A stretch of 64,000 nucleotides of DNA from Acholoe squamosa (lineage: Eukaryota; Annelida; Polychaeta; Phyllodocida; Polynoidae), in contig OX439044.1 in NCBI GenBank assembly GCA_949317995.1, positions 53,524,166-53,588,165 of the forward strand, in the 5' to 3' direction. The position numbers were made by a program, and so were the translations under genes. A model generated the notes under the pieces. That model did no database searches and had not been told where the DNA came from. It saw nothing but the letters and a program-made list of their open reading frames with translations. This document shows, piece by piece, positions 7,135 to 64,000 of this stretch. Each line of letters opens with the position of its first letter. The stretch's first letter is position 1.

Positions 7135-8731
7135 CTATGGGTTGCTATAAGGATACTTGCCTCATTATAGAACGGTCGGAATTTGCTAGTCACATGGGAG
7201 CATCATTTACTATTGGCAGGTTGGGAGTATTGTTATGCCATAGGAACATACATCCATGGATGTGACACTGATGTGTGGCGGCCTGGGTCAGCAGACTGCT
7301 GCTTAATGGACTAATCAGAAAAAGCTATGAGACTAGACATCACATTGTCACGTTTCTCAGCTTACTTAGAATATGGCTACTCATAATCTATGAAGAATAT
7401 CAAGATTTGAATTAGGGAGGTTGTCAGAAAACATAAAAGTAGGAGAATCACTGAAAATTTGGCACATTACGGAAATGTCTCTCTTATTTCATTTTCTTTG
7501 GTTGGTTGGGGGTGGGGTAGGGAGAGGAGCACTGGTCATCTACTGCTGTCCTGGTAACCTGGTAAACAGTGAAAAAGGACGTTCAGTGCCTGGCTGCACA
7601 ATGCCCCTTTGCTAGCATGATGCATGACTGCAGATGACTGGTGCTGCATTCGTGGATATTGCCAACATTTTTATTCATACATATCCTCCGAGTGGAATGA
7701 TGTGCAACCTTAGAGCTGAAGGGTAGATTTCAATTACTCTCTTTTTGTGGTGTTTTATATAAGGAAAAATAAAGTGGATGGGAAGCCTTGCGCTGCCCTT
7801 GTAGGGTTATAAATATGAGTGGGTGTGGGGTTCTCTAACACTGTGAGAACCAAGGAGATCCTTGCTGTGTGTGCTTGTCGTGACTTGTGTTAAATAAGGA
7901 GGTGTGTTATTTGTACTGAGGTCATACTTAGCACATCCCATTACACCGACGAGTGTCAATATCCTACAGACAATATGACTCACTTAATGACTTAAAAAGT
8001 GTAAGGTAGTCACTTGTTTGTACATTCCTGTGTATGCAAATACTGGATATGCAGACTTACACCGATGTCTCAAAGGTATTAATATAGAAAAAAGAAAATT
8101 ATTAACTGCTTCTGATATCTCTTTAAACGGCTAGGGTTAACCAGGAAGAACTGGGTGCTGGTGCTGGTTGATATGACATTTGTACGGGAGGGGTAATATT
8201 TGGCAATCTGGTCTTCTACATCAGATATTCCAAACTGGCCTGCATCAAATCCAGCCTGTCCCAATTGCTTACAAATGAATCACTGCTAGTTCTGGGTATT
8301 TGGGCGAAGGGTGTGTCAAAGCTATACCCAGTTCATGATAGTTGAGGCTCCTGTGGTCCCAGGTGCACTGTGTGGTTTCCATGGTGACGACTGCCTTCAT
8401 ATCCTTTATGTTTCATGACAACTACAGTAAAAGTTGTTCAACGTTTTATCGGAAAGATAAGAGTTGCTTGAAAGATAATGCTAGTATATACAGCGACTTT
8501 GACTAAATTTAGGCTGTATTTCCTCAAATCATTATTGTTTTTAATTCCCTTAGGTTAATGTCCTCATGTGTGTGTTTTGCTTGTTTCAGTAACCGTCCAA
8601 CAACACCTCATCCTTTACCTACCAGAGAGTGCCTTAGCGGTAAAACAGTGAGTATACTTCCAATGTCACAACGCCAATTATTATTTCTCTCAGTGCATGT
8701 ATCAGCTTTGGCATAATGGAGTCAGCTAATG
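7135..8731. other. Non-coding, nothing recognised
   Basis: No coding or RNA signal. Spacer between a palindromic element and a TIR element. Confidence 0.55.
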
Positions 8732-27494: not shown

Positions 27495-27564
27495 GTAAAC
27501 CAAAATGGGTTGCGGGACCAGCTTCGCCAAGGTCTTGTTGATCATCTTCAACATTATCTTCTGG
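27495..27564 (+). CDS. Tetraspanin 1 exon with start codon
   Basis: A pyrimidine-rich tract and AG at 27493-27494 precede ten bases of 5'UTR and the ATG at 27505. It encodes 20 residues, the cytoplasmic N-terminus and first half of TM1, and ends before gtatgt. Gene 2 has the same exon with the same length. Confidence 0.9.
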
Positions 27565-30500
27565 GTATGTAAAATATTTACTCCTTCCCCCATCTTGTAT
27601 TCTCATCTATCTGACGTCATATCCCAGAATTACGGATTTTGATTAAATTATTATATCATTTCTCAGACCGATGCCCCCTGATAACCAAAGATCTTCAATT
27701 CAACCCGGCACCCCACAGCCTATATCTATATCGTCCTTTTTAATTTCAGTTATCGGGAGCAGCATTGCTTGGAGTTGGAATCTGGCTACTGGTGAATCCT
27801 ACCATTGTCCAATATCTGGAACTCCTCACCCTGGTGTCAGGAAGCAGTAACCTCCTAAGGTTTGCCGCCTACGTCTTCATTGGTGTAGGGGCCTTCGTAC
27901 TCATCGTTGGCTTCTTTGGATGCTGCGGAGCCATCAAGGAGAACAGATGCATGCTGGGAGTGGTAAGTTCAAATCTGAATTTTAATGATCATAAAATGGC
28001 CGTAAGACCCCGTGTACAAGCCGCACCCACGCCGAAGCAGCACACCTGAGGCCTGAAACGGTTGACCATTCCTTAGAATAGTCTATAGTAATATGCAAAG
28101 ATCCCTCATATAAGCCACATCCTGGCCTCAGGAAAATCGAATAATCCACAGTGTAGGCCTCTGAAATAGTCTATGATAATTAATCATAATGTTGAAAAAT
28201 GATGATGAGGTTTAAAGATAAGAATCTCTATAACCCTGCATATATGCACTATAGTGGGTATTGTATATCCCATTCATGTATACTATGATGGCAGAAAATA
28301 ATCATCAAAATGATGTCCGCACGTGATTATTATGATTCCACTCTAATATCTTTCCTGTCGGAAAGGTAATTTTGATATTCAAATGTTTCATTGGCATAAG
28401 CATATGAGTGTAAGTGTAACATTTCTGTAGTTCTATGAATGACTAACGTCACCTTCTGTGGCAGAGTGATCGTGTTAAAAAATCTCAGTCTGTACGTTGT
28501 GGGTTCAAATCCCCAGAAAACTTATTTTGTAAACTTCCTTTCCTGTGTACCTCCTTGTATTGTGTGGCTTGAATTACGACTAATTCTGTCTTTACCTTAT
28601 ATATGTTAATGGAACACCTACATTAATACACGCACACACCTTTCTTTCCACAGTACATCTTTTTGTTGGTTTTGATCATGGGTCTGGAGATCACCGGAGG
28701 AGTCTTGGCCATCATTTACAAGGATAAGGTATAGATAATTATTTCCCCCTTTCTATAGATACCGTATAGTAGGTCTAGTTCCAAACTTCCCAGTTATCGT
28801 CGTCCTTCTATAAAAACCCTCTTAAAAAAAACAGAATCAACCCTTCAAAATATTCAAGCTGCATGATTATCTTAGACGTCCAGTTTTAAAGTGGGCTTTT
28901 TGGATAGCAATGCCTTCTTGTGTACCTTTACACAAGAGGAGTCCAATGCATGTAGTCCAATGTCTGATAAAAAGGAATCCTTATGAACACTAGCATCCTT
29001 AATGAATGCCTACCCAGCATTACCAAGGCATTAGAGGGGTCAGGATGTATCTAGGTGTAACGTGTAAAGGCCATTATTTCTTACCATTCTAGACGAACAC
29101 GTTTCCTTACCTATGTCTTTCCTGCTTCAAATATGTCTTTCATATTGCCATACTTTCTATTCTTCACAAGATCGAGGAGACAATCACAGAAAAACTGAAA
29201 ACAACCTTTGACGACAGATACAACAAGAGTTCACCAGAGGCCAAGGCCTTCACTGAAACCATGAACTTCATTCAGGTCCAGGTAGGTCTATGTGCAATCT
29301 TACTAAGTTCTCTTATCAAAGGGCCATAACACTAATTATCAAAGATGCATACCAATGGTTCTGAATTATCGTTATATAAAGGCATAACAGTACAAATATA
29401 TCATAGATACCAGATGCTAATGGTTTTGTCCCTTACACAAAAGAGCCGCTGTGACCGTAAGACAGGCCCTCAACTCGAGAGAAAGCTATAAAGGACTTAA
29501 CTTTTAGTATTGTTTTAGAGTATATTCTCGCCTATAAGGCTCACCCCAGACCTTCTGCTGACCCTGTAAGGTGCACTTGGGGATGTACCCTTGTGTATAA
29601 GTTGAGTCTTATACGAGGGGCATTACGGTATCTTTCAATGTTTGACTAGTTATAAATGTATTATTATTCTTATGTTGCAGCTGAAGTGCTGTGGTGTCAC
29701 AGGCCCAAAGGACTATATGACCAATAACATGGAATATGTAAGATTTTCACTCTTTTAAGTACAACAGTAGAATCACTCTATCATTCTGAAATCGTTGATA
29801 TCCAGAGTAAAGCTGTTTGAAAGGCAAAACGATAAGAGTTTATAAACTCCAAATGGTATTGATTTATGGATTTAACATTGTTGTATTTCCTATACTGTTG
29901 AATAACACAAATTGTGGAACTTCACATATGAATTCAGTCAGAATTTTGCTTACAAAACTGATACTTATTGCATGTTCAGTCATTAATGACCCTTCACTTA
30001 TGAGTCTTAAATCTACGGAGTTGATTCATAAAGGACGAAACAGACTTTTGATATATTATGTGCTATAACACAGGGAATTTCAACTGTTCACCATCATAAT
30101 CACCCACCATGAACCTCTAGTAATTAACCAATAGTATTCTCATTTTAATATTGATACTCTTATTGTCTATGTTTAATGCAATTTAAGATTCTCAGAATCA
30201 ACAGAAGTGATGTACCAATTGCCCTCAAATTTTTCTCCCACAACTTCTTGACACAACAAAAAATCTCCCAAATTATACGTTGAGGGCTCCCTTAAATTGT
30301 TGCACAATATGTAAAGTATATATCCTCAGCTGTTTTATTGTACTCTGTCCTGGACTAGCCCATCCAATGCTGCAAACTGCAGCCCCAGTCAATGGACAAA
30401 GACCCCAACTCTCTAACTGACAAAGACATTGCCGACCTGAATGGTTGTCGGAGGGATGTGCCCGGCACTATCCACACAGGTGTAAGTGTGGACTTACAAG

Positions 30501-32098
30501 CCCCAACTGTCTGCACGGTGTTGTCCTAATCTACTACCCACCCCCCTGTCCTTTGGTGATGAATGTGGTCAGGGGCATGCACCGCCAACACCCAGTAGGC
30601 TTTTTTGTCAATTTCCAGCTGTCCCATGGTCCCCCAGCACATCCTGATTTAACATGAGAGAGAAGCAGTAATTTTCTTTATTTTCACAGTAGTTACTGTT
30701 ATATACATTGGGAAATCAGCATTAGAAATCATTTGGCAACGTAATTGCAACTGGCAAATCCTATCTGTATTTCTTTTTTGTTTTTTTTTTCTTTAAAGAA
30801 AGGAAAATTTACCTTAGGGTTAAATTCTAAGCATTTTTCATGCTAAACTTTAAGAATTGGTAGACCTTGATTTTACTTTTATTTGGCTGTAACCTAAGGT
30901 TGGCAAAATCTAATGGCAAAATCTTAATATATTTCTCTGTCCTGAATACGGTAACTTATTATCTTTAATCGCTTTGAATACGGTCTAAGTTGATTGATTA
31001 TCTTTCTCTTTTGCCACAAAATATACTTCTTTGCCCAAAGAAAAGCCATTAGTGTTTAGGATGCCTTTGGGTAAAGTCACTTTCTCCCTAAGATGCTGAT
31101 AGCTGATATCCTGAAGCTAGTTTTGTAAGAAAAAATGCACAGTTTAAAAAGTAATAAACAAAAGCAAACTCTCTTCAATGGGAGTGCTTATAAGGAAGAG
31201 TTGGGTAGTATCATGGGACAGCTCTTCCTGCCCCCACATCAGCCCCCTCCCCCACACCATCACCCCCGAGACTGGCAGTACCACCCTATCTATGCGCTCA
31301 TTTGGCAATGATTATTAATCAGACCTTAAAATTTGTAAGTTTACACAAAATTGAAAGGGAACAAAATACATAGCTAGATAAAAGGTGCAATTGCCAGTAA
31401 GGTGGTAGATGTGGATACCACTTATAAATGTTATCATTAGTCTGTGTTTGCGTATGTCTTCTCATTTCTATAGTGATGATAGTGTTGTTCGTGCATGGTG
31501 CATGTTGTTATATTGTAGCCACCCCAGTGTTGTGTTCTGACTGAAACCGGTAAGGGAAAGCCGATCCAAGACCTCAAAAAAGACACCACTGACTTAGTGG
31601 ATCCTGGACGCTGTGATGAGGCACTGATATCACTCAGAAAGGACGATTATGGCTATGGCGCAGTATGTTTATTGTAGTTACAAATATATTATAATACTAA
31701 CATCAGCGAAGGTGGAAGGGGATGGAGCTTTGACTAATAACCCGCCCTGTAGTTGAATTATATTGTGGGGCCAGCTATTTAATACACGCCTGGGGGACAT
31801 TTCAGAATAATAGCAATTGTTGTTATTTTGAAATACCCTCCTGAGCTGTTTTCTGCGCTCGTTTCTAGAACAAGTCATTAGAACAACATTCCAAGAATAC
31901 ATATGATATATAAAATCTAATTGACACTCATTAGCTGACAATGAAAAACACCACATGATATATGGATTTAAAACTGTCTAAACTTTAAAAGTTCAAATGG
32001 TGAAACTCCCGAGCAACACACTGTACAATGGACATATTTCAAAATCAAGTTACTTTAAAATCGAAAAGTCTTTGAAAAACGTCCAACTAATCTGTGTG

Positions 32099-32174
<76 letters not shown>

Positions 32175-33905
32175 ATATATTTAGGTTATTAACGTAAAAG
32201 ACATTTATTCAAATTCTGTATTCAGAAACAAAGTTATATTACATGAGGTAGAAGAAGAGAACCAATGGGGAAGCATGAAATATGATATCAATATTATAAT
32301 CTTCTGTCTACTATGAAATGGATACCTGATCAATATACGAGTGTGCTTTCCATTTATCTGGGGTTAACCTCATGAGTTAGAGGGTAGCGTAGACACACTG
32401 GAGCCACTATAATAAGGGGAGACATAATTGATAAACGAAGACCAAGATGGAGAATTAAAATTTTAATCTAGCGTTCGAAGTGTATGCATGTTCACTATTA
32501 CTTTTTCAGTAGCATTTAGAAATAGAACTAGCATGTTGGTGGTTATATATTTGCTTCCCTGTCATTCAAATTCATCAACATTCCGATCCCTTGTTTTGAT
32601 ACCTGTTCATTTCAGTAGAATAGAGTAGTTGTTGTTTATTTCTGTATTATAGTGGAGGCTCCACTACGCGATTTCTTGCTACATTCTCATGGAATGTTAT
32701 CCCTATAGTGCCTAAGGTATAGGGTGTTGACATCCCTATATTGTAAACATGAGATTCGAAATTGTAAACATGAGATTTCAGGGGTCATTTCATGGGTGAT
32801 CTCTTTCCTTGTGTGCCATATTTACAAACTAACCTACAACTGCATAGACTCGGTGATTGGGTGGGAGTTCAATGAAGGGAGTTCAATATATAAACATCAA
32901 CACAACAAAATATAAATAACAACACAGCAGTTACACAGACCACAGGGTCTTGAACTGTAAAAATCAAACCTGTCTGATTTTGAGTTGCATAGAGTCATCA
33001 GTGTGTAAGTCTGCAATATTTACATTAGGTCAGCTTGGTTTGGTAAACAAAAACATCTTTTCGACAACACAAGCATGCCTGAAATTGCACACAATGACAT
33101 CCCAACATAAACAAATGGCTCCTTTAACATACAATTTCTACCTTGCAATGATAACAAATGCCACTTTGAGTCTTTGTTTGAGTCTCATTTTGTGAGAATA
33201 GCTCCGATTCTCTGCAAAAATCGGGTAGTGGAGCCACACCTTATGGGGTTTTCTTTATGTACCCGTGTGCCATAATTGTATAATGTAATCGTATAATGAA
33301 TAAATGTATGACTGTTACTAACTTAATTATGATTAGGCTTCCTGCTAAATTGATATCTCTGAAGTTAAATCTATGATGTCATTATAATGTAGAATTTTCA
33401 AAAATGATAAAGATTAAAAAAAAAAAGAAAACGTAACAATTATTTTTCCTACCTCTTATACAATCTAGGGCTGTGAACCCGTATTCAAGGAATGGGTCCA
33501 GCTGCATGCCATCATTCTGATTGGCGTTGGAATAGGCATTGCTTGTCTTGAGGTATGTGTATGTTTTATCAATCTAGTCATACAACCTTTCGAATACCCT
33601 TGCATCTGCCAAAATAGATAAATAAAAATAGGTACCATTGGTACTAATCTCATACATTACTTCTAAGTTCCCAAAACCATTACTTATAGGAATATATTAT
33701 CTATGTTCCATTTAGCATAAAATCAATGTCAGTAAACCTACCTTGTTAAGACATCTGTTTCATTACAGTTATTATTATTCTAGTGATTGCTAAGAATATC
33801 GCTCTTATTGTACTTCATCCTGAAATGAATATTTCTTTTCTCTTGCAGCTCTTTGGCTTCATCTTCGCTGTCTGCCTGTGCAGAAGTATCCAAGACGATG
33901 AATAG
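27495..33905 (+). CDS. Tetraspanin gene 1, complete coding region in nine exons (two of them alternative)
   Basis: Tetraspanins are four-pass membrane proteins that organise membrane microdomains. Coding exons are 27505-27564, 27750-27962, 28654-28728, 29171-29281, 29681-29737, 30359-30481, 31519-31662, 33469-33552 and 33849-33905 (stop TAG). All junctions are AG/GT and phase 0. The start sits in a good context (aaccaaaATGG) just after a splice acceptor at 27493-27494, so a non-coding exon lies upstream. Visible parts: N-terminus MGCG; TM1 split over exons 1-2 (GVGIWLLV); TM2 ending FFGCCGAIKENRC, whose cysteines are likely palmitoylated; TM3 in exon 3; the large loop with CCG in exon 5, P-x-QCC in exon 6 or 7 and GC opening exon 8; TM4 over exons 8-9; tail CLCRSIQDDE. 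Exon 4 has an NKS glycosylation sequon. Length is 259 or 266 residues with one alternative exon, and 307 with both. The TM4/tail resembles the TSPAN1/TSPAN18 group from memory, so I give no symbol. Confidence 0.94.
27750..27962 (+). CDS. Tetraspanin 1 exon 2 (TM1 to TM2)
   Basis: It encodes 71 residues in frame between a ttcag acceptor and a gtaagt donor. It holds the rest of TM1, the small extracellular loop, and TM2 with the intracellular motif GFFGCCGAIKENRC that is diagnostic of tetraspanins. Confidence 0.94.
28460..28520 (+). repeat. tRNA-derived SINE-like fragment in tetraspanin 1 intron 2
   Basis: It has an A-box-like TGGCAGAGTGATCG and a B-box-like GGGTTCAAATCCC about 35 bases apart, within an intron. 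No acceptor stem pairs well, so it is a SINE remnant and not a tRNA gene. Confidence 0.5.
28654..28728 (+). CDS. Tetraspanin 1 exon 3 (TM3)
   Basis: It encodes 25 residues (YIFLLVLIMGLEITGG and following), a hydrophobic segment with the glutamate common in TM3. It is bounded by ttccacag and gtatag and is phase 0 at both ends. Confidence 0.92.
29171..29281 (+). CDS. Tetraspanin 1 exon 4 (start of large extracellular loop)
   Basis: It encodes 37 residues beginning IEETITEKLK, the first helices of the large loop, with an N-K-S sequon. The acceptor is cacaag and the donor gtaggt. Gene 2 has an exon of identical length. Confidence 0.92.
29505..29630. repeat. Remnant of an ATAAGxCxCACC / GCATTACGGTA element in tetraspanin 1 intron 4
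   Basis: It contains cctataaggctcacccc near the left and cttatacgaggggcattacggta at the right, the end motif of a common short TIR family. Related fragments seem to lie at about 27990-28150 and 37225-37395. Borders are approximate. Confidence 0.45.
29681..29737 (+). CDS. Tetraspanin 1 exon 5 (CCG motif)
   Basis: It encodes 19 residues, LKCCGVTGPKDYMTNNMEY, with the invariant CCG of the large loop. It lies between a tgttgcag acceptor and a gtaaga donor. Confidence 0.93.
30359..30481 (+). CDS. Tetraspanin 1 alternative loop exon 6A
   Basis: It encodes 41 residues starting PIQCCKLQPQ and ending PGTIHTG, with cysteines at the QCC pair and one NGC. Bounded by a ctag acceptor and gtaagt, phase 0 at both ends. 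It supplies the P-x-x-C-C step that the family needs between CCG and the final GC. Exon 7 supplies the same step, so the two are best read as alternatives. Confidence 0.85.
31519..31662 (+). CDS. Tetraspanin 1 alternative loop exon 6B
   Basis: It encodes 48 residues starting PPQCCVLTETGKGK and ending DDYGYGA, with the CC pair and one further cysteine (GRCDEAL). The acceptor is attgtag and the donor gtatgt, phase 0. It has the same role as the preceding exon but a different sequence; either joins in frame to exon 8, which opens GCEPVF. Confidence 0.87.
32101..32171. repeat. (TA)n microsatellite in tetraspanin 1 intron 7
   Basis: About 35 uninterrupted TA units, followed by a short impure tail. 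Confidence 0.97.
32649..33242. mobile_element. TIR element in tetraspanin 1 intron 7
   Basis: Left end tggaggctccactacgcgat matches the inverse of the right end (aatcgggtagtggagccaca). About 590 bases, no transposase. It contains a short direct duplication (ttgtaaacatgagatt twice at about 32740-32778). Confidence 0.7.
33469..33552 (+). CDS. Tetraspanin 1 exon 8 (end of loop, TM4)
   Basis: It encodes 28 residues, GCEPVFKEWVQLHAIILIGV and following, carrying the last loop cysteine and most of TM4. The acceptor is atctag and the donor gtatgt. Confidence 0.92.
33849..33905 (+). CDS. Tetraspanin 1 last coding exon
   Basis: It encodes LFGFIFAVCLCRSIQDDE then TAG: the end of TM4 and a short cytoplasmic tail with two cysteines suited to palmitoylation. 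The acceptor is tcttgcag. Confidence 0.92.
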   Translation, partial: LFGFIFAVCLCRSIQDDE

Positions 33906-53386: not shown

Positions 53387-53458
53387 AAATCGTCCACCAT
53401 GGGATGTGGAGCAGGTATTGCACGGGTCCTCTTGATCATCTTCAACGTTATATTTTGT
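53387..53458 (+). CDS. Tetraspanin 2 exon with start codon
   Basis: The acceptor is ttttccag and the ATG at 53399 has a CCACCATGG context. It encodes 20 residues (MGCGAGIARVLLIIFNVIFC) and ends before gtaaga. Confidence 0.88.
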
Positions 53459-56400
53459 GTAAGAATTATCATTATAATATGTTTAGGATGAAGGTTTAAG
53501 TGAGAGTGTATACTAGTGGCATATCCATGAATTTGAAAATGGGGATAGTGTGCCATTAAAGAATGTCTTCCCGAGGGTATTCTAGGGCAGATTTAACATT
53601 AGAAAATTAAAGTTTTCTCCCCAAAACGGAGGGTGCCTCAGCGCCCCCTCAAAATCTGCCACTAACCAACATGCAGCAATTTGTAAGCAAGAATCTATCC
53701 AAACGAACACTTTACACATAATTTGTCACAGTAGGAAATGCCATTGATCTGTTCCACGCCCCTTGGCAGATCTATGCCCTCATGTATACTTAACTATACA
53801 TTGTATATAGTTCTGATCATTCACTTGAAATGGTTGGCCTTCCCCATTCAAATGCCATAATTTATCTATACCAATAAAATCACATTTAGAAATCCCACCT
53901 GCCAAGCGATTTACAAAATCTGACGATCTTTGTGTGGTCAGATAGTGTATTCAGAAGCAAGTGTTTTATATTGGAAAGATTGCGATATTTTGAAAAGGTT
54001 TGCATTTCCAGTGATATATAATATATGCATACCGTAATGTCCCGTATAAGCGCCGGGGCGCTTATTAACTTCAAACAGGCAATACCCCCGGCGCTCATTC
54101 AAGACTTAAACCACAGTGGATTTTCAAATTTCAATACTCCTTTATCCCTGGCACTTATTCAATACCGGCGCTTATTCAAATACCCGGCGCTTATTCATGC
54201 CAATACAGTAGTTAACATTAGAATAGTAGACATATAGGAATATCAGTTATCAACTTAAGTAGACCTCCTGGGGTGACCGTTGGATCCTGATGAAAATTTC
54301 AATTATATTTCGGGATGTTTTATGAATCACATTCTAGATGACTTTCTCCTTCAAAATGTCCATTTTCATAAACTCCTTCACCTTGAGCACCCTTCAATCC
54401 GTCCCATATGGACACTTGGTCACCCACCTCAAGAACACAAAACTGATGAGTTTTGGACCTTAACGCTATGGGATTTTCCTCAGTGTCTGCGTGTGACATC
54501 ATGCCCTCGTGACCTAGTTGGACCTGAAAATGAGGCTCGCTGCAAGCAGCTCCATGTAGCTGCAGCCTGATTGAAATCAGCTGCCTGTGGCCTTAGCAGT
54601 GATGAAAACTCTCATAGTTTTAAGATCCAAATTGGATCAGTGGTGCAAGCTAGAGGCACATGCAAAGGCACGTGATTGCTATCCATAGGGCTGCCAAACC
54701 TTAGCCTGACCTGCTCTGTGCACAGCATTTGAGATATTCATTCATGTTTCTGTTTGTAGTTGTCTGGAGCTGGACTGCTGGGCGTGGGGATCTGGTTGTT
54801 GGTGGACCTGAGAGTTGGGCATCACCTGAATGTGTTTGCTAGTGAGGCGGCCCTCCTCCAATATGGCGCCTATGTCCTCATTGGTGTTGGGTGCTTCGTG
54901 TTCATAGTTGGCTTCTTTGGTTGCTGTGGAGCTATAAAAAAGAACAGATGCCTCCTAGGAACGGTAAGTTGTAAGGTGTTTTATTTTTAAAGCCTAGATT
55001 TCATCAAAGGAAAAACTGGAAGAGGAGAAACACAATCAATAATTATATTTACGATGCACTGAAGCAGTGTCTTTTTACCAATCCCTAAAAACAGTCTAAT
55101 AAAGAGCGTTTATGAGCAATATCCTTGAAAATAACAGTGAATTCTATGTTCCAAATTTGCCAGAGTACCTTTGTTACATCATGACAGCATTTTAGCAGAA
55201 TAGAGACCAGGCAAGCTAAACACCCCTCTGCAGGGAAATTCATTATTAAACTTCATCTCAAGATCTTTAAAATGGGACATCATTGGCTTATTTATTTCTA
55301 AATACATCATAACCATAATAATGTCTAAAACACAATAAATGAAACCTTTTCATAAAAATACAGGATAATATAATGATTTTTATTATAGATTTTGATCTAG
55401 AAGGAGTTTTCCATTCCTGTTTTCAGTTTTGGGTTTTCGTTGAAAATCCCCTAAAATGGCATAAAATATACAAATTAAGATTATTGGAATGGTTGCCATG
55501 ACAACTAGGAACAGGCATATATGCCGATTTTTTCATAAAAAAAAAAATTTACCTTCCAAATATGGGACATTAACAAAAAGTGGGGCGTTTTAAATGAAAC
55601 CATTGAATTCTACATCGCAAATTAGCTTAAGGTATTTTAATAATCATTTTAGAGTTATTTTGCCACAAAAATGCCCCCTGGTGGCCAAATGGGGAATTAA
55701 AAATCCCCTACAGAGGGGTCTTCTCCCTTGTTGAGTCACTTATAGGTTATTCATTTTCATCTATAGGCCTGGGTATATCATAAGGATCCTTAGATTATAC
55801 TAAAGACGTACTAGGCCGTGAACTTACATTACATTAAAAGATACATCTGCATACCATAAGATACAGAACATTCTTTACTTGAACATTTAAGTTCCTCCCT
55901 TTAAGATCATATGTAACTCAAAAATTAGACACCATACCAACTTGTGTATGGTTGCCATGGCAACCAAAAGACAACAAAGTATAGAAAATGGCAAAGAAGA
56001 GACTTAGAAAATTGATCTGATCATTTTATTGCATAACTTAGACTTTGGTGTTCAAAGGTTATTTAATTATGTAACAGTAATAAGCAAGTATTATGCATAT
56101 TCTTCAAAAGTAAAACATGTTACTCATTAGGAAAATAGGGGTGTGTTTTCCAATACGATGTATATAGTTATGTATTTTGTATAGATATGAATTAAAATGT
56201 CATCCTCTAATATTTCATAATGGCTTATCCTAATTTTATCAAAGCTTGACATTTAGTAAAGCTATATGGCCCTCATATTTGAATCTTATATGAGTGACCT
56301 TGGTCAAGGTTAAGGTCATTACGTATGACCTTAAAAGTTCTAAACTCATTGCATAAAATGATGTTTATGACCTATGTAGGTCCACACATTGGATTCTCTT

Positions 56401-57032
56401 AGAGATCTACATGTAGGTCAGAATTGAAAACTCTATATCATTGGGCATTTTCATCCGATCACCACAAAATTTGAAATCATTTTTCTCTTGTCTCAGTCGA
56501 AAGATTGAATATTTCAATAGTCTCTGATTGTTTTTATTCTATGTAACATTTACATTATATCTATAATTAGCCTGTGTTCTATCATTGGGTTAATATTTAC
56601 TTGCAGTACATCTTTCTGTTGGTTATTGTCATGGCGCTTGAACTTGCTGCTGGAATTCTCGGCGTCATCTTTCGAAACAAGGTAGATTATATATTATTGA
56701 CATAATCACAAAGCTGAAAGGACAAACAGCAATATCTGATTATTGTATTTTCTTTTATTAAGTGTGATTTCCCATAATAACCAATATGATGCTCTCTGTA
56801 GATGATGATTTGAATTATGGATGGTCTTACCTAAATTAATGATCTATCAAATAATGCAGACAACAAAAACATATCTAAATTCCATGAATCATGTAACATC
56901 AAAATATCCTTCCGATTCCAGATCGAAGGGGAACTTGAAGAAAAACTGCTGGAGGCATTCGCAACGAACTACAATGGCACTGAAGGACCGAACATGGCAT
57001 TCACAACTGGGCTCAACTATTTGCAAGCTACT
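53387..57032 (+). CDS. Tetraspanin gene 2, 5' half (four coding exons; gene continues beyond the window or is truncated)
   Basis: A paralogue of gene 1, 26 kb downstream on the same strand. Coding exons are 53399-53458, 54760-54963, 56607-56681 and 56922-57032, all phase 0 with AG/GT borders. The ATG has a near-ideal context (gtccaccATGG) after an acceptor at 53385-53386, so again a 5' non-coding exon is expected. It encodes 150 residues: MGCGAGIARVLL, TM1 (GVGIWLLVD), TM2 ending GFFGCCGAIKKNRC, TM3, and the start of the large loop with an N-G-T sequon. Exon lengths of 60, 75 and 111 bases equal those of gene 1, and exon 2 is 204 against 213. I find no CCG exon from 57033 to 64000; that space holds mobile elements. 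The gene may resume past the window or may have lost its 3' half. Confidence 0.88.
54030..54210. mobile_element. TACCGTAATGTCCCGTATAAGCGCC-type MITE in tetraspanin 2 intron 1
   Basis: Starts taccgtaatgtcccgtataa and ends caatacagta. The word ggcgcttattcaa repeats four or more times inside, in both orientations. 181 bases. Confidence 0.75.
54760..54963 (+). CDS. Tetraspanin 2 exon 2 (TM1 to TM2)
   Basis: It encodes 68 residues between a tttgtag acceptor and a gtaagt donor, with GVGIWLLVD and the tetraspanin signature GFFGCCGAIKKNRC. Confidence 0.93.
55673..55688 (-). promoter_or_regulatory. CTCF-like core motif in tetraspanin 2 intron 2
   Basis: On the minus strand TGGCCACCAGGGGGC matches the conserved bilaterian CTCF core without mismatch. 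Occupancy is unknown. Confidence 0.4.
55950..55965. promoter_or_regulatory. Perfect RFX/X-box-type palindrome in tetraspanin 2 intron 2
   Basis: GGTTGCCATGGCAACC is a full palindrome matching the RFX-family consensus. A one-mismatch copy, GGTTGCCATGACAACT, lies at 55491-55506. Binding is inferred from the motif only. Confidence 0.4.
56607..56681 (+). CDS. Tetraspanin 2 exon 3 (TM3)
   Basis: It encodes 25 residues (YIFLLVIVMALELAAGILGV and following), the same length as the gene 1 exon. The acceptor is acttgcag and the donor gtagat. Confidence 0.92.
56922..57032 (+). CDS. Tetraspanin 2 exon 4 (start of large loop)
   Basis: It encodes 37 residues (IEGELEEKLLEAFATNYNGT and following) with an N-G-T sequon. 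The acceptor is attccag and the donor gtgagt. Length equals gene 1 exon 4. Confidence 0.9.
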
Positions 57033-59438
57033 GTGAGTACAGCGAGTTAAGCTTGAATCTTCTTTGACTTTTTAGAAGTCTTTGGGTTCTCAGTGTTCTC
57101 AGTCGGGTCCACCTCCATGGATGTTTCAGACTCGAGAGGAACCTCCACGTTTGGGATTCAGTGGCTGACCAGGCAGGGGTGGAGGCTTCGGAATGAAAGA
57201 CGTCTCGGGTTTCCCCTTGGTACCTTCCTCAGTAACCACATTGATTTCCGAATCCGAGTCCAGCAAATAGTCCTCCTCCTTCATTACATGCAGAGCTTCT
57301 GCTATGTTTACAAAGACCCGGTCAGTAAGTATCTATTGAAATACTTGACCCAACGTGTACCGAGAGGGCTATCCCAACTGCAACGGCTAGAATTTCTCAG
57401 TAAAACAGTGAGGCGTGCTCAAATCAACGGTTCCTCTAAACTAGAGATACCGAGCAGTAGGTATGTCTTATCTCCATGTAGGGACAAGTCACATCTCAAT
57501 ATAATTATAGAGGGGGCTATCCGGTGACCTTACCTACTTCTTGACCAATCAGAGCACAGCGCCCAATTGTTTACACACTCGTGTGATTGTCCAAATATGG
57601 AATTTGAACCTTCCTGTTATGGCTTCTCAGTTGGTTCACAATAGAAAATATATACAATCCCGATCTGTGGTGTAATCAATGTAGAACTAATTCTAACAAT
57701 GATGGCGACGCCAAACACACGTTCAAGTATAAAATTCTGCTCCCATTAGAACATAGTATTACCAGAGGTGGTACAGCTCATCAGTACTTCTTGTTGTGTG
57801 TAATTCTTTTATATATACTCATAAGGCAAGTTAAATTATCCCCGCATGGAGATATCCTAGGACATTAACCTTTTTGTGCCCAGGATTATTTGGCCTTTTT
57901 TGGTTTATTCCTATATGGCTGCTTTAATTTTGATGGTCACATGCGTGTACTGTCTGCAAATCATTTCTTAAGCACCATTTTTAGATTGAATGCTCCATTT
58001 GTTTCATCTCTTCAGACCTCCTTTACGAAAATTAAGGATCTTGTGTCATACCAGGAATATGTGTGTATGATCAAGTTGTCATATGAGAAATATCATATGA
58101 CTAGTGGCTATAATGAGTAAGAATATCAAGCTCTTATAAAATGTAGCAACTTTACCCTCTTGTAGATGGATGGTAGAAGATAGCCTCTGGCCACAAGTGG
58201 GGTTTAGTCCTATGCCTGGCTGATATAGTCTAACCCAGCAGAGTGTTCTTGTGACAAGAGCATGGCAGGTACAGGAGAGCTGGACTGGAGATGGTGTTTC
58301 TTAGGTGACTCTCTGGATACTGTCTGGATGGAGGGTAGGGTTGAGCTTAAGTACCCTAGCCTAGCTTCCTTCCTCCAGACTAGCTGGAGCCAGTGGCAAC
58401 TGCCACTGCCACTGTTCATTAGTGCTGAGTCTTTGATGTCCTTGTGGATATATAGGACACCCCTATCATCAGTACGGCATCCCCAGTGTCTCCGTCAGTT
58501 TGGCATGTTCAACGGCCTGTATCTTGATGATGCTTGCGCCTGGGCATGTCTAACTGCGCATGTGGGGAAGGGTACCTGTCAACTACCTGTAGGCCATCTC
58601 GTGTGCGCACAGGTCACGCTGGTTTGTCTGTGGTGCACCGAGAGCTCAAAACAGCTTCCGCTGGCTTAGCTTCCTTAATAATGGGTCTTTTGACACTGGA
58701 TTAAGTCCATTGAATGCGTCATGGACGGGCGCATCCATCATCTGGACCATGACATCCATGAGATGGTATTTGCAATGCCAGAAGTTCACGACATCGTCAC
58801 CTTTGTAGTCTATTGTTAGTGTATGGTGGTCAGCGGACTGTGACAGCGGAATGGATTGTCCTTAAACAATTATATAAACTATTGTTCATGGTCAGTGAAC
58901 CATGAGGTCAGACCTTTTGGTCCTTAAACAATTATATACACTATTGGTGTGTGAGACGAGGCGTGCTGGGGTTGATGACGCTACCTTTGTGCGACCATAC
59001 TGTGAGCCCGCACACTCTCCCTCCCAACCTTTATGGAGAGTGAGGTTGCTCCAAACTCCAACATAACCCAAGCTGTGATTGGCCCGCTGGCCTCTCACCA
59101 AGGGCCCAAGGCCCTGATTGGTTCAGGGTTTCCCGCTCACTTGCTGGTCCCCAGCTGGTGTTGTATGCAGTGTGGATACTGCCACACACCAGCTTCAGCA
59201 CCCTTAGTTCCGTGGTGAGCCATCAGAGGGCACCACTGGGTGGTGAACTGGTTACTGAAGGGGAGTATCTCCCAATTGGTACTGGTGGTAAGAGTGCTGT
59301 ACACTAGGTGGCAGCAAGGCGAAAAGGGGGGTTTTAAGGTCTACACTGTACATAGAAAAGGGCTATAGCACCCACCCCCTACCGAGATGGTGGTTGCTGC
59401 GGGCGCTATGGAGACCTAGAGGCTTAATAGGCGGGTGT
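57033..59438. other. Start of tetraspanin 2 intron 4: unclassified, probably repeat-derived
   Basis: GC-richer than the flanks. A minus-strand frame at about 57130-57310 (AEALHVMKEEDYLLDSDSEI, PKPPPLPGQPLNPK) looks protein-like but unknown. At 58859 and 58921 a phrase ccttaaacaattatata repeats. No CCG-type tetraspanin exon was seen. It may include the terminal repeat of the Penelope-like element or another element. Confidence 0.4.
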
Positions 59439-60842: not shown

Positions 60843-61659
60843 TAAGTACTGGCTTTCGCATTTCTTGCATTCTATGCAGTAGATGATATTGGAGCTTTTG
60901 CATGTGACATTGTGTTTGGTTTGGAATTTTTCTCCTGATTCTTTAGAAGTAATTTCTCCTGATTTGTCCAGTAGCTTGCAGTACTTGCAGTTGCGTTTTC
61001 TGCATCTATTCCTGTCACTGGCTGGGATTTTCACTGAGTCTTCCCTGGGCATGTTGTAGCATATCCTTGATCTAACTAGGTGATCCTTTAGGTTCTTTTG
61101 GCGTTTATAATCCTTGAAATCTTGGTATTATATAACTTCTTGGTTGTGGCTGACCTGCCCAGAATGTCCTTGTTCCCTTCCACTATTTCTGCCAGGCGAT
61201 TGCCAGTGGCTTGGGAGGTCCTGATCAAGAACAGTTTGTCTTCCTTATTTTTGTCTGGAAGTTTCTTCTCTTGCAGTATCTCATTTCTAGTTTCCTCGTC
61301 TACTCTAGCTTTACAGTCTAGTAGTAGCTTTAGAGGATACCTCTTTTCCAGGAACTCCTCTATCTTCTTTTTGCACTCTCTCTCACAGTCCAAGTCCAAT
61401 TTACAAATGCGCCGTAATCTGAGGAACTGGGAGTAGGAAGACTGTGTTTGGTTGCCGGTGGGTGGGCTGATGTGTAGTTCAGGTAGGTAGGTATTGACGT
61501 CTGACAGTTTCCTGTACAAAGTGGTGTACATAGTCCTGTTAGTACCTATCCTGACCGTGGTATCCAGGAAGTTTATCTCTTCTTTTGAGTACTCCATGGT
61601 GAATTTGATTGAGTGGTGTCATCAATGAAGCGAAGCCAGATCATAGGCTTCAAGGGGCT

Positions 61660-61791
61660 TGTAATGAGTTGAAGGAATAACCAAGACCTTACAATTTGGT
61701 GCTAGACTAATGTTTAATTCAGGTATTATCACTCAACTTCCGGTTCCCGGTCTCCTTAACATTCTACACAGAAGACGGCGCATATGTTACA
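61660..61791 (-). repeat. 3' LTR of the Gypsy-type element
   Basis: On the minus strand a purine-rich tract (61792 to about 61815) is followed by TGTAACATATGCGCC. The repeat ends TCATTACA exactly where recognisable Penelope-like RT sequence begins. It is 132 bases long with TG/CA ends. The partner LTR is outside the window, so the limits are not proven. Confidence 0.65.
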
Positions 61792-64000
61792 TCTCCCATT
61801 TTCTCTTTTTTTTTAAACAGAGAAGTTACTATATAGCACAACCATCAAATGCACCAATGAACATGACTTAACCAGTCTTCAATATAGCAAAGGCTACTTT
61901 GATGTGAAAAAGAAATCAAGTGTCTGTATTCTTTTCTTGAACAGTCTCATTATAAACGATGCAAAATACCATAATATCAAATCCCTTTGGATCACTTATA
62001 GTTTATGTCACAATGACTAACTAAACAGTCCTTTTGAAGATAACACATAAATGTGTCATAGATGGAGCTTTTTGGGTGGTTTGCTCAACCTGCCACTACT
62101 GGTGCGATATGGAGCACCATCACCTTGAGCAGAGTCTTTTTTGCAAGTAGGAGTTGGAGGCACTTCTTTTGGGCAACTAACAGTAACAGTTGGGTGAGGT
62201 GATTTCTGTGGCTTAGGTGGAGATGGTAAATCAGCAGGTGTTTGTGGTATGATATCAATAGGTGGTATGTTCACAGTTGTTCTCTGGGCCACAGTAGCCC
62301 TAGTTATTTCAGAAGTACAGTTATTGTTAGCATTCTTGTTGGCATCATGTGTTGCCAATCGTAGATGCTGACTGTTTCTCCGATTCTTTCGCCCTTCACG
62401 CTCCACCACATAAGACCTTGGCTCCTCATGATGTCCCACAACAGTCCCTGGCACCTATTTCTTAGATCCTAGGAATGGTGACATTCTTACTGGATCACCT
62501 ACTTTAAGTTGTGGTAGGTCACTTGGGTGCTTGGCATCATGATAATGTTTCTGTGACCTTTTAGATTGGTCCAAGGCCTTTCTCACATCCTTAATGTCTA
62601 ATCTGTTTTGGGTTTAGTAACTCTGTAGCTATTGGAATCATGTTACGTGGTCTCCTGCCCATACTCAGCTGTGCCGGTGACAGGCCACAACTCTCCATCG
62701 GTGTTGTTCTATGATCTATATTTGTCACTGGCTTTGGCCCAAAATATTTTCATTGTTTGCACTGCTCTTTCGTCCTCCCCATTAGATTGAGGGTAGTTTG
62801 GAGATGATGTGACATGTGTAATGTGTCTTATAACACAAAATTGTTTAAAGTCCTGACTGGAAAACTGAGGTCCATTATCTGTCCTAAGAGTCTCTGGTAG
62901 GCCAGGAACTGCTGGTTGGTGCATCAGAGTTTCTTGTGTAGTTGCCGATAACATGTCATGCAGTTTGTCTACTTCAATAAATTTAGTCATATAGTCTACA
63001 GTCAGCAAATAGTTTTGTCCTTTCCACTCAAATATATCACTAGCAACCTCCTGCCAGGGGTGTTGGGGTGTTGGGGTGTTGGGGTTGGACATAGGGTCTC
63101 TGATGGCTGCTTATTCACTGACCAGTTCTTCGCTTCTTTGGCTTATCCCTGGCCAGTACAGTGCTTCCCTCACTCTCTGTTTACACTTTGTGATGCCAAG
63201 CTGGGATCCATGAACCTGGGTGAGCATCTCTGCTCGAAGACTAGGTGGCACCACAATCCTCATCCCTTTATACACAATGCCATCCGAAACTGCAAGCTCA
63301 TCTCTAATGGACCAGTACTCCCTTATACTGTGTGGCACTTGTTCTTTTGTATCTGGCCATATTTTAAGTATGATGCTGTACAGCTCTTTCATCTCATCAG
63401 CTGTTGTTTCTTGGAAACTGCAATACCGGGTTGGAGTAACAGCAATAAAGTTAACCATGTTAACTGTAATGTGTTCTATGTCTTCTTCTGCTTCTGGCAG
63501 GTTTGCCCGGCTCAGTGCATCTCCTATAGGAATATCCTTTCCTGGAACATAGCAGACATTTAGGTCATAGGGCTGAAGGGGTAGCATCATCGTCTGGAGT
63601 CTCATTGGCGCTGCTAACATAGGTTTCATGAAGATCAATTAAAGTGGTTTATGGTCTGACTGCACAACCACTTCTTTGCCAAAGGCATAGTAATGAAATG
63701 TCTTGCAACAGTGGACAATAGCTAGCGTCTCTTTTACTATCTGAGCATATCCTCGTTCTGTGCTTGTCAGGGCCCTTGAGGTATATGCCACTGGTTTGTC
63801 ATTTTGGAGCAACACACCTCCTAGCGCATAGCTGGATGCATCACACTGAATCTTGACTGGTTTCCGCACATCATAGTATGCCAGTACTGGGGCATTGCAA
63901 CACAGGTTTTCAGCTTCTCGAAGCTGCACTGCTCAGGCTGTTCCCACACAAACTCTGAGTCTTTCTTTGTGAGTGCACGTAGAGGTACTGCAATCTCACT
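61660..64000 (-). mobile_element. Gypsy/Ty3-type LTR retroelement, 3' part, broken fossil
   Basis: Reading the minus strand from the window edge leftwards, the parts are the end of RT and RNase H, the integrase zinc-binding region, the integrase core, the integrase C-terminal region, a polypurine tract and the 3' LTR. The family is Ty3/Gypsy, close to the Mag/K02A2.6-like group common in marine invertebrates. Its gag, protease, most of RT and the other LTR lie outside the window. The copy is broken, with a handful of breaks, and of intermediate age by eye. It sits inside the Penelope-like element, in the same orientation, so it is the younger of the two. Confidence 0.9.

Follow-up and report, generated by a model that had tools for sequence, protein, structure and literature searches.

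We analysed a stretch of 64,000 nucleotides (nt) from the genome of the polychaete Acholoe squamosa (assembly GCA_949317995.1, contig OX439044.1, positions 53,524,166 to 53,588,165 of the forward strand), which is referred to as the window below. The mitochondrial COX1 frame of this genome is interrupted by stops if read with the vertebrate code and uninterrupted with codes 5, 9, 13 and 4; a comparison with COX1 sequences (AAA = Lys, AGA/AGG = Ser) favours code 5, that of invertebrates, and speaks against a vertebrate, echinoderm or tunicate. The window carries the tetraspanin gene TSP1, with nine exons on the plus strand between positions 27505 and 33905, and the first exons of a tandem paralogue, TSP2 (Table 1). 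Two adjacent exons of TSP1, 6A and 6B, are both open, in phase 0-0 and bordered by GT-AG introns. Each encodes a module of the form PxQCC...C, fitting between the CCG motif of exon 5 and the GC motif of exon 7. In the original prediction, these two exons had been described as interchangeable parts of the large extracellular loop that are probably mutually exclusive. The coordinates, phases, cysteine counts and lengths given there were all correct (its exon 8 is exon 7 here), and the two exons indeed occupy the same slot, and either of them gives a complete six-cysteine loop. From the genomic sequence, we lean towards the reading that 6A and 6B are alternative loop exons, mostly used one per transcript.

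The TSP1 locus and its two loop modules

Four TSP1 products can be formed from the two exons, and all of them are in frame: 259 amino acids (aa) with 6A (isoform A), 266 aa with 6B (isoform B), 307 aa with both and 218 aa with neither. The large loop contains six cysteines with either exon and nine with both. In comparison with the Pfam Tetraspanin profile (cut-off 32.1 bits), isoforms A and B reached 198.5 and 200.6 bits, respectively, each in one stretch covering profile positions 2-224 of 225. The product lacking both exons was still matched in a single stretch, with 168.9 bits and hence a loss of about 30 bits. Both isoforms show the large-loop pattern CCG--[DN][WY]--PXXCC--C--GC that defines the 6-cys-a tetraspanins in Table 1 of PMC2965184, with CCGVTGPKDY encoded by exon 5, PIQCC..C or PPQCC..C by 6A or 6B, and GC by exon 7. 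The TSP1 isoforms resemble the members listed in this source (CD63, CD151, TSPAN4 and others) in loop pattern, profile and phase-0 introns, whereas TSP1 differs from them in that a single gene contains two putatively alternative PXXCC--C modules and in that CCG and PXXCC are encoded on either side of an intron. The known partner sites of tetraspanins lie almost without exception in the variable region of the loop (PMC2650405). In an alignment of isoform A with TSPAN7, exon 6A spans the stretch from PPSCC to just before GC, inside this variable region. Because each exon contributes three cysteines of its own, 6A and 6B each represent a complete module.

That both modules together would give an abnormal protein had been predicted as well and is supported: the nine cysteines are an odd number, and the Pfam match of the double product is broken into two stretches. 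According to the tetraspanin disulphide pattern, nine cysteines would leave one unpaired, and two PxxCC modules would compete for one CCG partner. These properties argue against a constitutive inclusion of 6A and 6B, which would lead to a tetraspanin of 307 aa whose loop is enlarged and contains nine cysteines. Moreover, among the other 11 tetraspanin genes of this genome in which the loop motifs were readable, none showed a second PxxCC module, in series or otherwise (two of them, L026 and L028, were not followed to the GC exon). The double product would keep the frame, and its total Pfam score (202.7 bits) exceeds those of the other products by a small margin, but we regard constitutive double inclusion as very unlikely.

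Table 1. Positions of TSP1 and TSP2 features in the window
Feature	Position	Strand	Description
TSP1 exon 1	27505-27564	+	Start codon and most of transmembrane segment 1 (TM1); 3' splice site 10 nt 5' of the ATG
TSP1 exon 2	27750-27962	+	Remainder of TM1, small loop, TM2
TSP1 exon 3	28654-28728	+	TM3
TSP1 exon 4	29171-29281	+	Beginning of the large loop
TSP1 exon 5	29681-29737	+	CCG motif and DY (CCGVTGPKDY); stops short of the PxxCC module
TSP1 intron between CCG and PxxCC	29738-30358	+	
TSP1 exon 6A	30359-30481	+	123 nt, 41 aa; PIQCC...C, variable-loop module; strong donor, very poor acceptor
Two TGCATG hexamers (RBFOX motif)	31492-31504	+	Starts at 31492 and 31499; 15-27 nt 5' of exon 6B
TSP1 exon 6B	31519-31662	+	144 nt, 48 aa; PPQCC...C, putative alternative variable-loop module; weak acceptor, moderate donor
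TSP1 exon 7	33469-33552	+	GC motif, end of the loop, most of TM4
TSP1 exon 8	33849-33905	+	End of TM4, C-terminal tail, stop
TSP2 exons 1-4	53399-53458, 54760-54963, 56607-56681, 56922-57032 (span 53399-57032)	+	Tandem paralogue; continues past the window

Exon status and origin of 6A and 6B

We searched for a composite exon pattern consisting of AG, a pyrimidine-rich tract, P-x-x-C-C, exactly three cysteines and an in-frame donor at 90-210 nt. Within positions 29738-33468 this pattern matched 6A and 6B, and no further match was found on either strand of the window. When this 3.7-kb region was shuffled 4,000 times with its dinucleotides preserved, the pattern never occurred. Since the pattern was devised after the exons had been seen, these numbers gauge how unusual the two exons are and were not obtained blind. 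Codon usage, scored after training on 1,481 codons that include those of the remaining TSP1 exons, gave 0.097 for 6A and 0.266 for 6B. Both values exceed those of all 56 open intronic segments of at least 40 codons (maximum 0.085, mean -0.40). We regard 6A and 6B as real exons.

Next to this, we searched the 1.48-Gb genome with the protein sequences of both exons. Each was matched at its own locus, and the only extra match was one for 6B with an E value of 3.9. There is therefore no close second copy of either exon, and a duplicate locus or haplotype copy is unsupported, within the limits of a search that detects close copies and is blind to diverged relatives (the TSP2 loop exon was not returned). 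A 6B-like motif, PPQCCIL, at position 1751 of the genomic stretch L012 (E 0.30) lies in an intron-like part of a P450-like gene (family assigned by eye); we treated it as a chance match or relic. Among the CC-containing open segments listed for the TSP1 introns, there was no additional candidate for a third loop exon.

Local alignment of 6A with the loop exon of TSP2 gave a score of 58 (z 7.6), with z 2.5 beyond the CC motif, while 6B reached a score of only 25 (z 0.3) in the same comparison. As 6A resembles the TSP2 exon more than 6B does, 6A is likely its counterpart. Exon 6B would then be one of three things: an old copy, a fast-changing copy or a capture from another tetraspanin. A recent tandem duplication was rejected, since at the DNA level the best local match of the two exons covers 10 bases, or 14 bases if the flanks are included (raw lengths).

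Splicing and a possible choice between the loop exons

Splice sites were scored with position matrices built on four paralogues (25 donors, 28 acceptors), a small and non-independent set. The donor of 6A is strong (higher than 18 of the 25), and its acceptor (-4.8) falls below all 28 reference acceptors, the lowest of which scored 0.0. For 6B, a moderate donor (higher than 6 of 25) is combined with a weak acceptor (higher than 2 of 28). Weak acceptors are frequent in regulated exons. Furthermore, 6A and 6B share the frame, differ in length by no more than 20 aa and have compatible splice sites, which are the properties used to recognise mutually exclusive exons (MXEs) in PMC3923563. Like the tandem-duplicated MXEs described in PMC5740500, PMC3923563 and PMC9741552, they are adjacent, of similar length, bordered by GT-AG and assigned to the same protein segment. 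They differ from those exons in that their similarity lies at the edge of the thresholds and that the pair is described here from the genome sequence; in the human atlas, MXEs are recognised by junction reads that bridge each exon, combined with a lack of reads joining the two exons (PMC5740500).

The shared phase 0-0 had been taken as support for interchangeable exons, but this argument does not hold. All exons read in TSP1, TSP2 and two further paralogues, T4 and T5 (see below), have a length divisible by three and phase 0, and the ancestral tetraspanin introns are also described as phase 0 (PMC2650405). Therefore, the phase of 6A and 6B is uninformative. It also follows that no combination of the two exons is eliminated by a frame shift.

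Besides the Pfam total of the double product, several observations on similarity, splicing, codon usage and motif choice weigh against one version per transcript, and they are given here together with the explanations on which they bear. The local similarity between 6A and 6B has a z of 3.1, with little in common beyond the motif: after removal of the PxxCC start, p was 0.12. Other loop exons are closer to either of them than they are to each other, namely that of T4 to 6B (z 4.3) and those of TSP2 (z 7.6) and T5 (z 3.9) to 6A. Kassiopeia accepts MXEs at a similarity of 15% by default and 10% in the relaxed setting (PMC3923563), and the values for 6A and 6B range from 9.8 to 16.2%, varying with gap costs and direction. 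In global alignments with other gap costs, 6A was the best partner of 6B among the exons compared, and some annotated human MXEs are reported to be without homology (PMC5740500).

As for splicing itself, no reference acceptors among the 28 score lower than those of the single loop exons in T5 and TSP2. Acceptor weakness may thus be characteristic of this type of exon and not a mark of alternative use. Double inclusion and double skipping both keep the frame, and nothing was seen that removes either product. The intron between 6A and 6B is 1,037 nt long and does not impose a steric block, and both exons use GT-AG sites. Ungapped pairing among the three introns, determined after removal of a long AT repeat, was not above chance (57, 157 and 25 of 200 shuffles were equal or better). 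Exclusivity by docking and selector RNA structures was therefore dropped as a candidate, as ungapped intronic pairing gave no signal. Strict exclusivity is thus not enforced by anything seen: from the earlier claim of mutual exclusion, the common slot and the abnormal double product stand, but no enforcing feature was found. The same observations (four products in frame, no incompatible splice sites, no short intron, no competing ungapped RNA pairing) would suit two independently regulated cassettes, with A, B, AB and neither all being made as a four-state mixture and no switch. However, the product with neither exon is devoid of PxxCC...C and scores about 30 Pfam bits lower, and AB splits the match, so that two of these four states look structurally poor. 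We consider such a mixture distinctly unlikely.

The codon-usage score of 6A is lower than those of all seven other TSP1 exons and that of 6B lower than those of six of the seven (range of the seven, 0.218-0.694). In addition, 6A is beaten by its own +1 frame (0.145) and by an antisense frame (0.173), and the antisense frame of 6B scores 0.243. With shifted and antisense frames scoring this high and 6A barely above the intronic maximum, the coding signal from codon usage is weak here. One of the exons could be a fading copy that is skipped or rarely used, leaving effectively a single isoform. For 6A, the marginal codon score and an acceptor below all references would agree with this explanation, and for 6B the lack of a counterpart in the corresponding interval of TSP2 (exon 5 to GC exon). 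But both frames are open, three cysteines and the splice dinucleotides are intact in each exon, both codon scores lie above those of all intronic open segments, and 6A has retained similarity to the TSP2 exon (also beyond the CC motif). A fading copy therefore appears rather unlikely to us.

We return to alternative use of 6A and 6B and to a possible regulator. Two TGCATG hexamers lie within the last 60 nt before 6B, a number reached in 11 of 20,000 shuffles of that intron. TGCATG was present in the scanned flanks of 3 of 31 exons, and none except 6B has two copies within 100 nt upstream. RBFOX proteins bind UGCAUG and act in a position-dependent manner (PMC7404189), and the A. squamosa genome contains an RBFOX-like exon for an RNA recognition motif (83% over 35 residues). 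RBFOX thus possibly chooses between 6A and 6B. On the other side, the hexamer was spotted by eye and late, as one of eight motif classes that were then checked around the 31 exons; once the eight motifs and roughly four flanks are taken into account, the chance level of the pair is about 0.02. TGCATG is also common throughout the window, with 70 occurrences observed and 52.6 expected.

TSP1 can be pictured as a 6-cysteine tetraspanin that carries its variable-loop module in an own phase-0 exon, with 6A and 6B as the two versions. Mostly one version would enter each transcript, and the resulting protein of 259 or 266 aa would combine the common membrane scaffold with one of two partner-contacting variable regions. 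Binding of RBFOX at the 6B acceptor might block this exon, so that 6A is taken; if RBFOX is missing, 6A, with its poorer 3' splice site, might be bypassed in favour of 6B. The module could be swapped because the intron between CCG and PxxCC makes PxxCC...C, a disulphide module, a self-contained exon. The complete scenario, in which an RBFOX-controlled splicing switch enabled by this intron of the subfamily exchanges the partner-binding half of the loop, is one that we put forward as doubtful. A similar arrangement is reportedly found in Caenorhabditis elegans egl-15, where the choice between exons 5A and 5B is said to be under the control of FOX-1/ASD-1 and SUP-12, with UGCAUG before one exon acting as a repressor site. 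TSP1 is like egl-15 in having UGCAUG before one of two putative alternative exons, but egl-15 belongs to another gene family, and the TSP1 regulator is proposed from the motif.

A literature survey based on titles and abstract openings, with subscription papers and genome annotations outside its scope, yielded no description of alternative or mutually exclusive tetraspanin loop exons. The main text of PMC3923563 does not contain the word "tetraspanin", and those of PMC5740500 and PMC9741552 contain neither "tetraspanin" nor "TSPAN". In human and mouse, tetraspanin splice variants with a shortened or removed large loop have been described (PMC6773723). These variants and the proposed TSP1 isoforms have in common that splicing alters the large loop, but in the variants presented there the loop is not exchanged for another version. 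Internal module duplication is said to be absent from vertebrate tetraspanins (PMC2965184), and an RBFOX-switched half-loop in TSP1, if true, would be an exception to this view, which was stated for vertebrates. An exchangeable loop would allow one gene to re-target a membrane organiser through splicing. The pair would also provide a natural paired experiment with one scaffold and two loops, and it would suggest how an intron within a disulphide-bonded loop can yield an exchangeable module.

Tetraspanin paralogues and the intron between CCG and PxxCC

Pfam tetraspanin matches were found at no fewer than 39 places (that is, at least 39) in the genome, 18 of them on contig C10. We retrieved 28 genomic stretches, a sample biased toward this contig, and both CCG and PxxCC were readable in 12 genes. 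L014/L015, L016/L017, L023, L024, L029/L034/L037, L036 and L039 had no readable pair and were left uncounted. In 10 of the 12 genes the GC exon was seen as well, so that the loop is covered. Five genes carry an intron between CCG and PxxCC: TSP1, TSP2, T4 (L020), T5 (L018/L019) and T6 (L035). In the other seven, both motifs are in one exon (L021 and L040 on C10; L022, L025, L026, L027 and L028 elsewhere); L040 has CCA where the others have CCG. All five genes with the intron are located on C10, towards which the sample leans, and two C10 genes do not have it. Two PxxCC modules were seen in TSP1 alone, which is one of the 12 readable genes and one of the five whose module is isolated by the intron.

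Introns in this part of the gene need not be exceptional, as 24.0% of the novel tetraspanin introns lie in the variable loop, and new introns there are not rare (PMC2650405). The additional intron between CCG and PxxCC, either gained in the subfamily or inherited, presumably made the module a free-standing exon, of which TSP1 later acquired two.

In TSP2, the interval from exon 5 to the GC exon holds a single loop exon (L010:10000 to L011:137) and no second, 6B-like one. The donor of this loop exon is very weak (GAG|GTGCCC, the lowest of the 25 scored), and its 3' end is therefore uncertain. Intron 4 of TSP2 measures about 16.7 kb by coordinates, from position 57033 through the end of the window at 64000 and on to L010:9695; near 61500-64000 it contains retroelement-like sequence on the minus strand (by eye). 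Remnants of a third tandem tetraspanin copy are visible in L011, comprising exon 3, exon 5 and, by eye, a decayed exon 8 (about 7204-7278, 8227-8292 and 9080), and no complete gene was seen there.

A second duplicated exon in the family was observed in T4, on the minus strand of L020. Its terminal exon is present in two tandem versions, at 4746-4684 (LFGIIFACCVRSEINKGEYA) and 4580-4515 (LFGVIFACCVRKEILKSERGL), which are separated by about 100 nt and carry separate acceptors and stops. They could give rise to alternative C-terminal tails.

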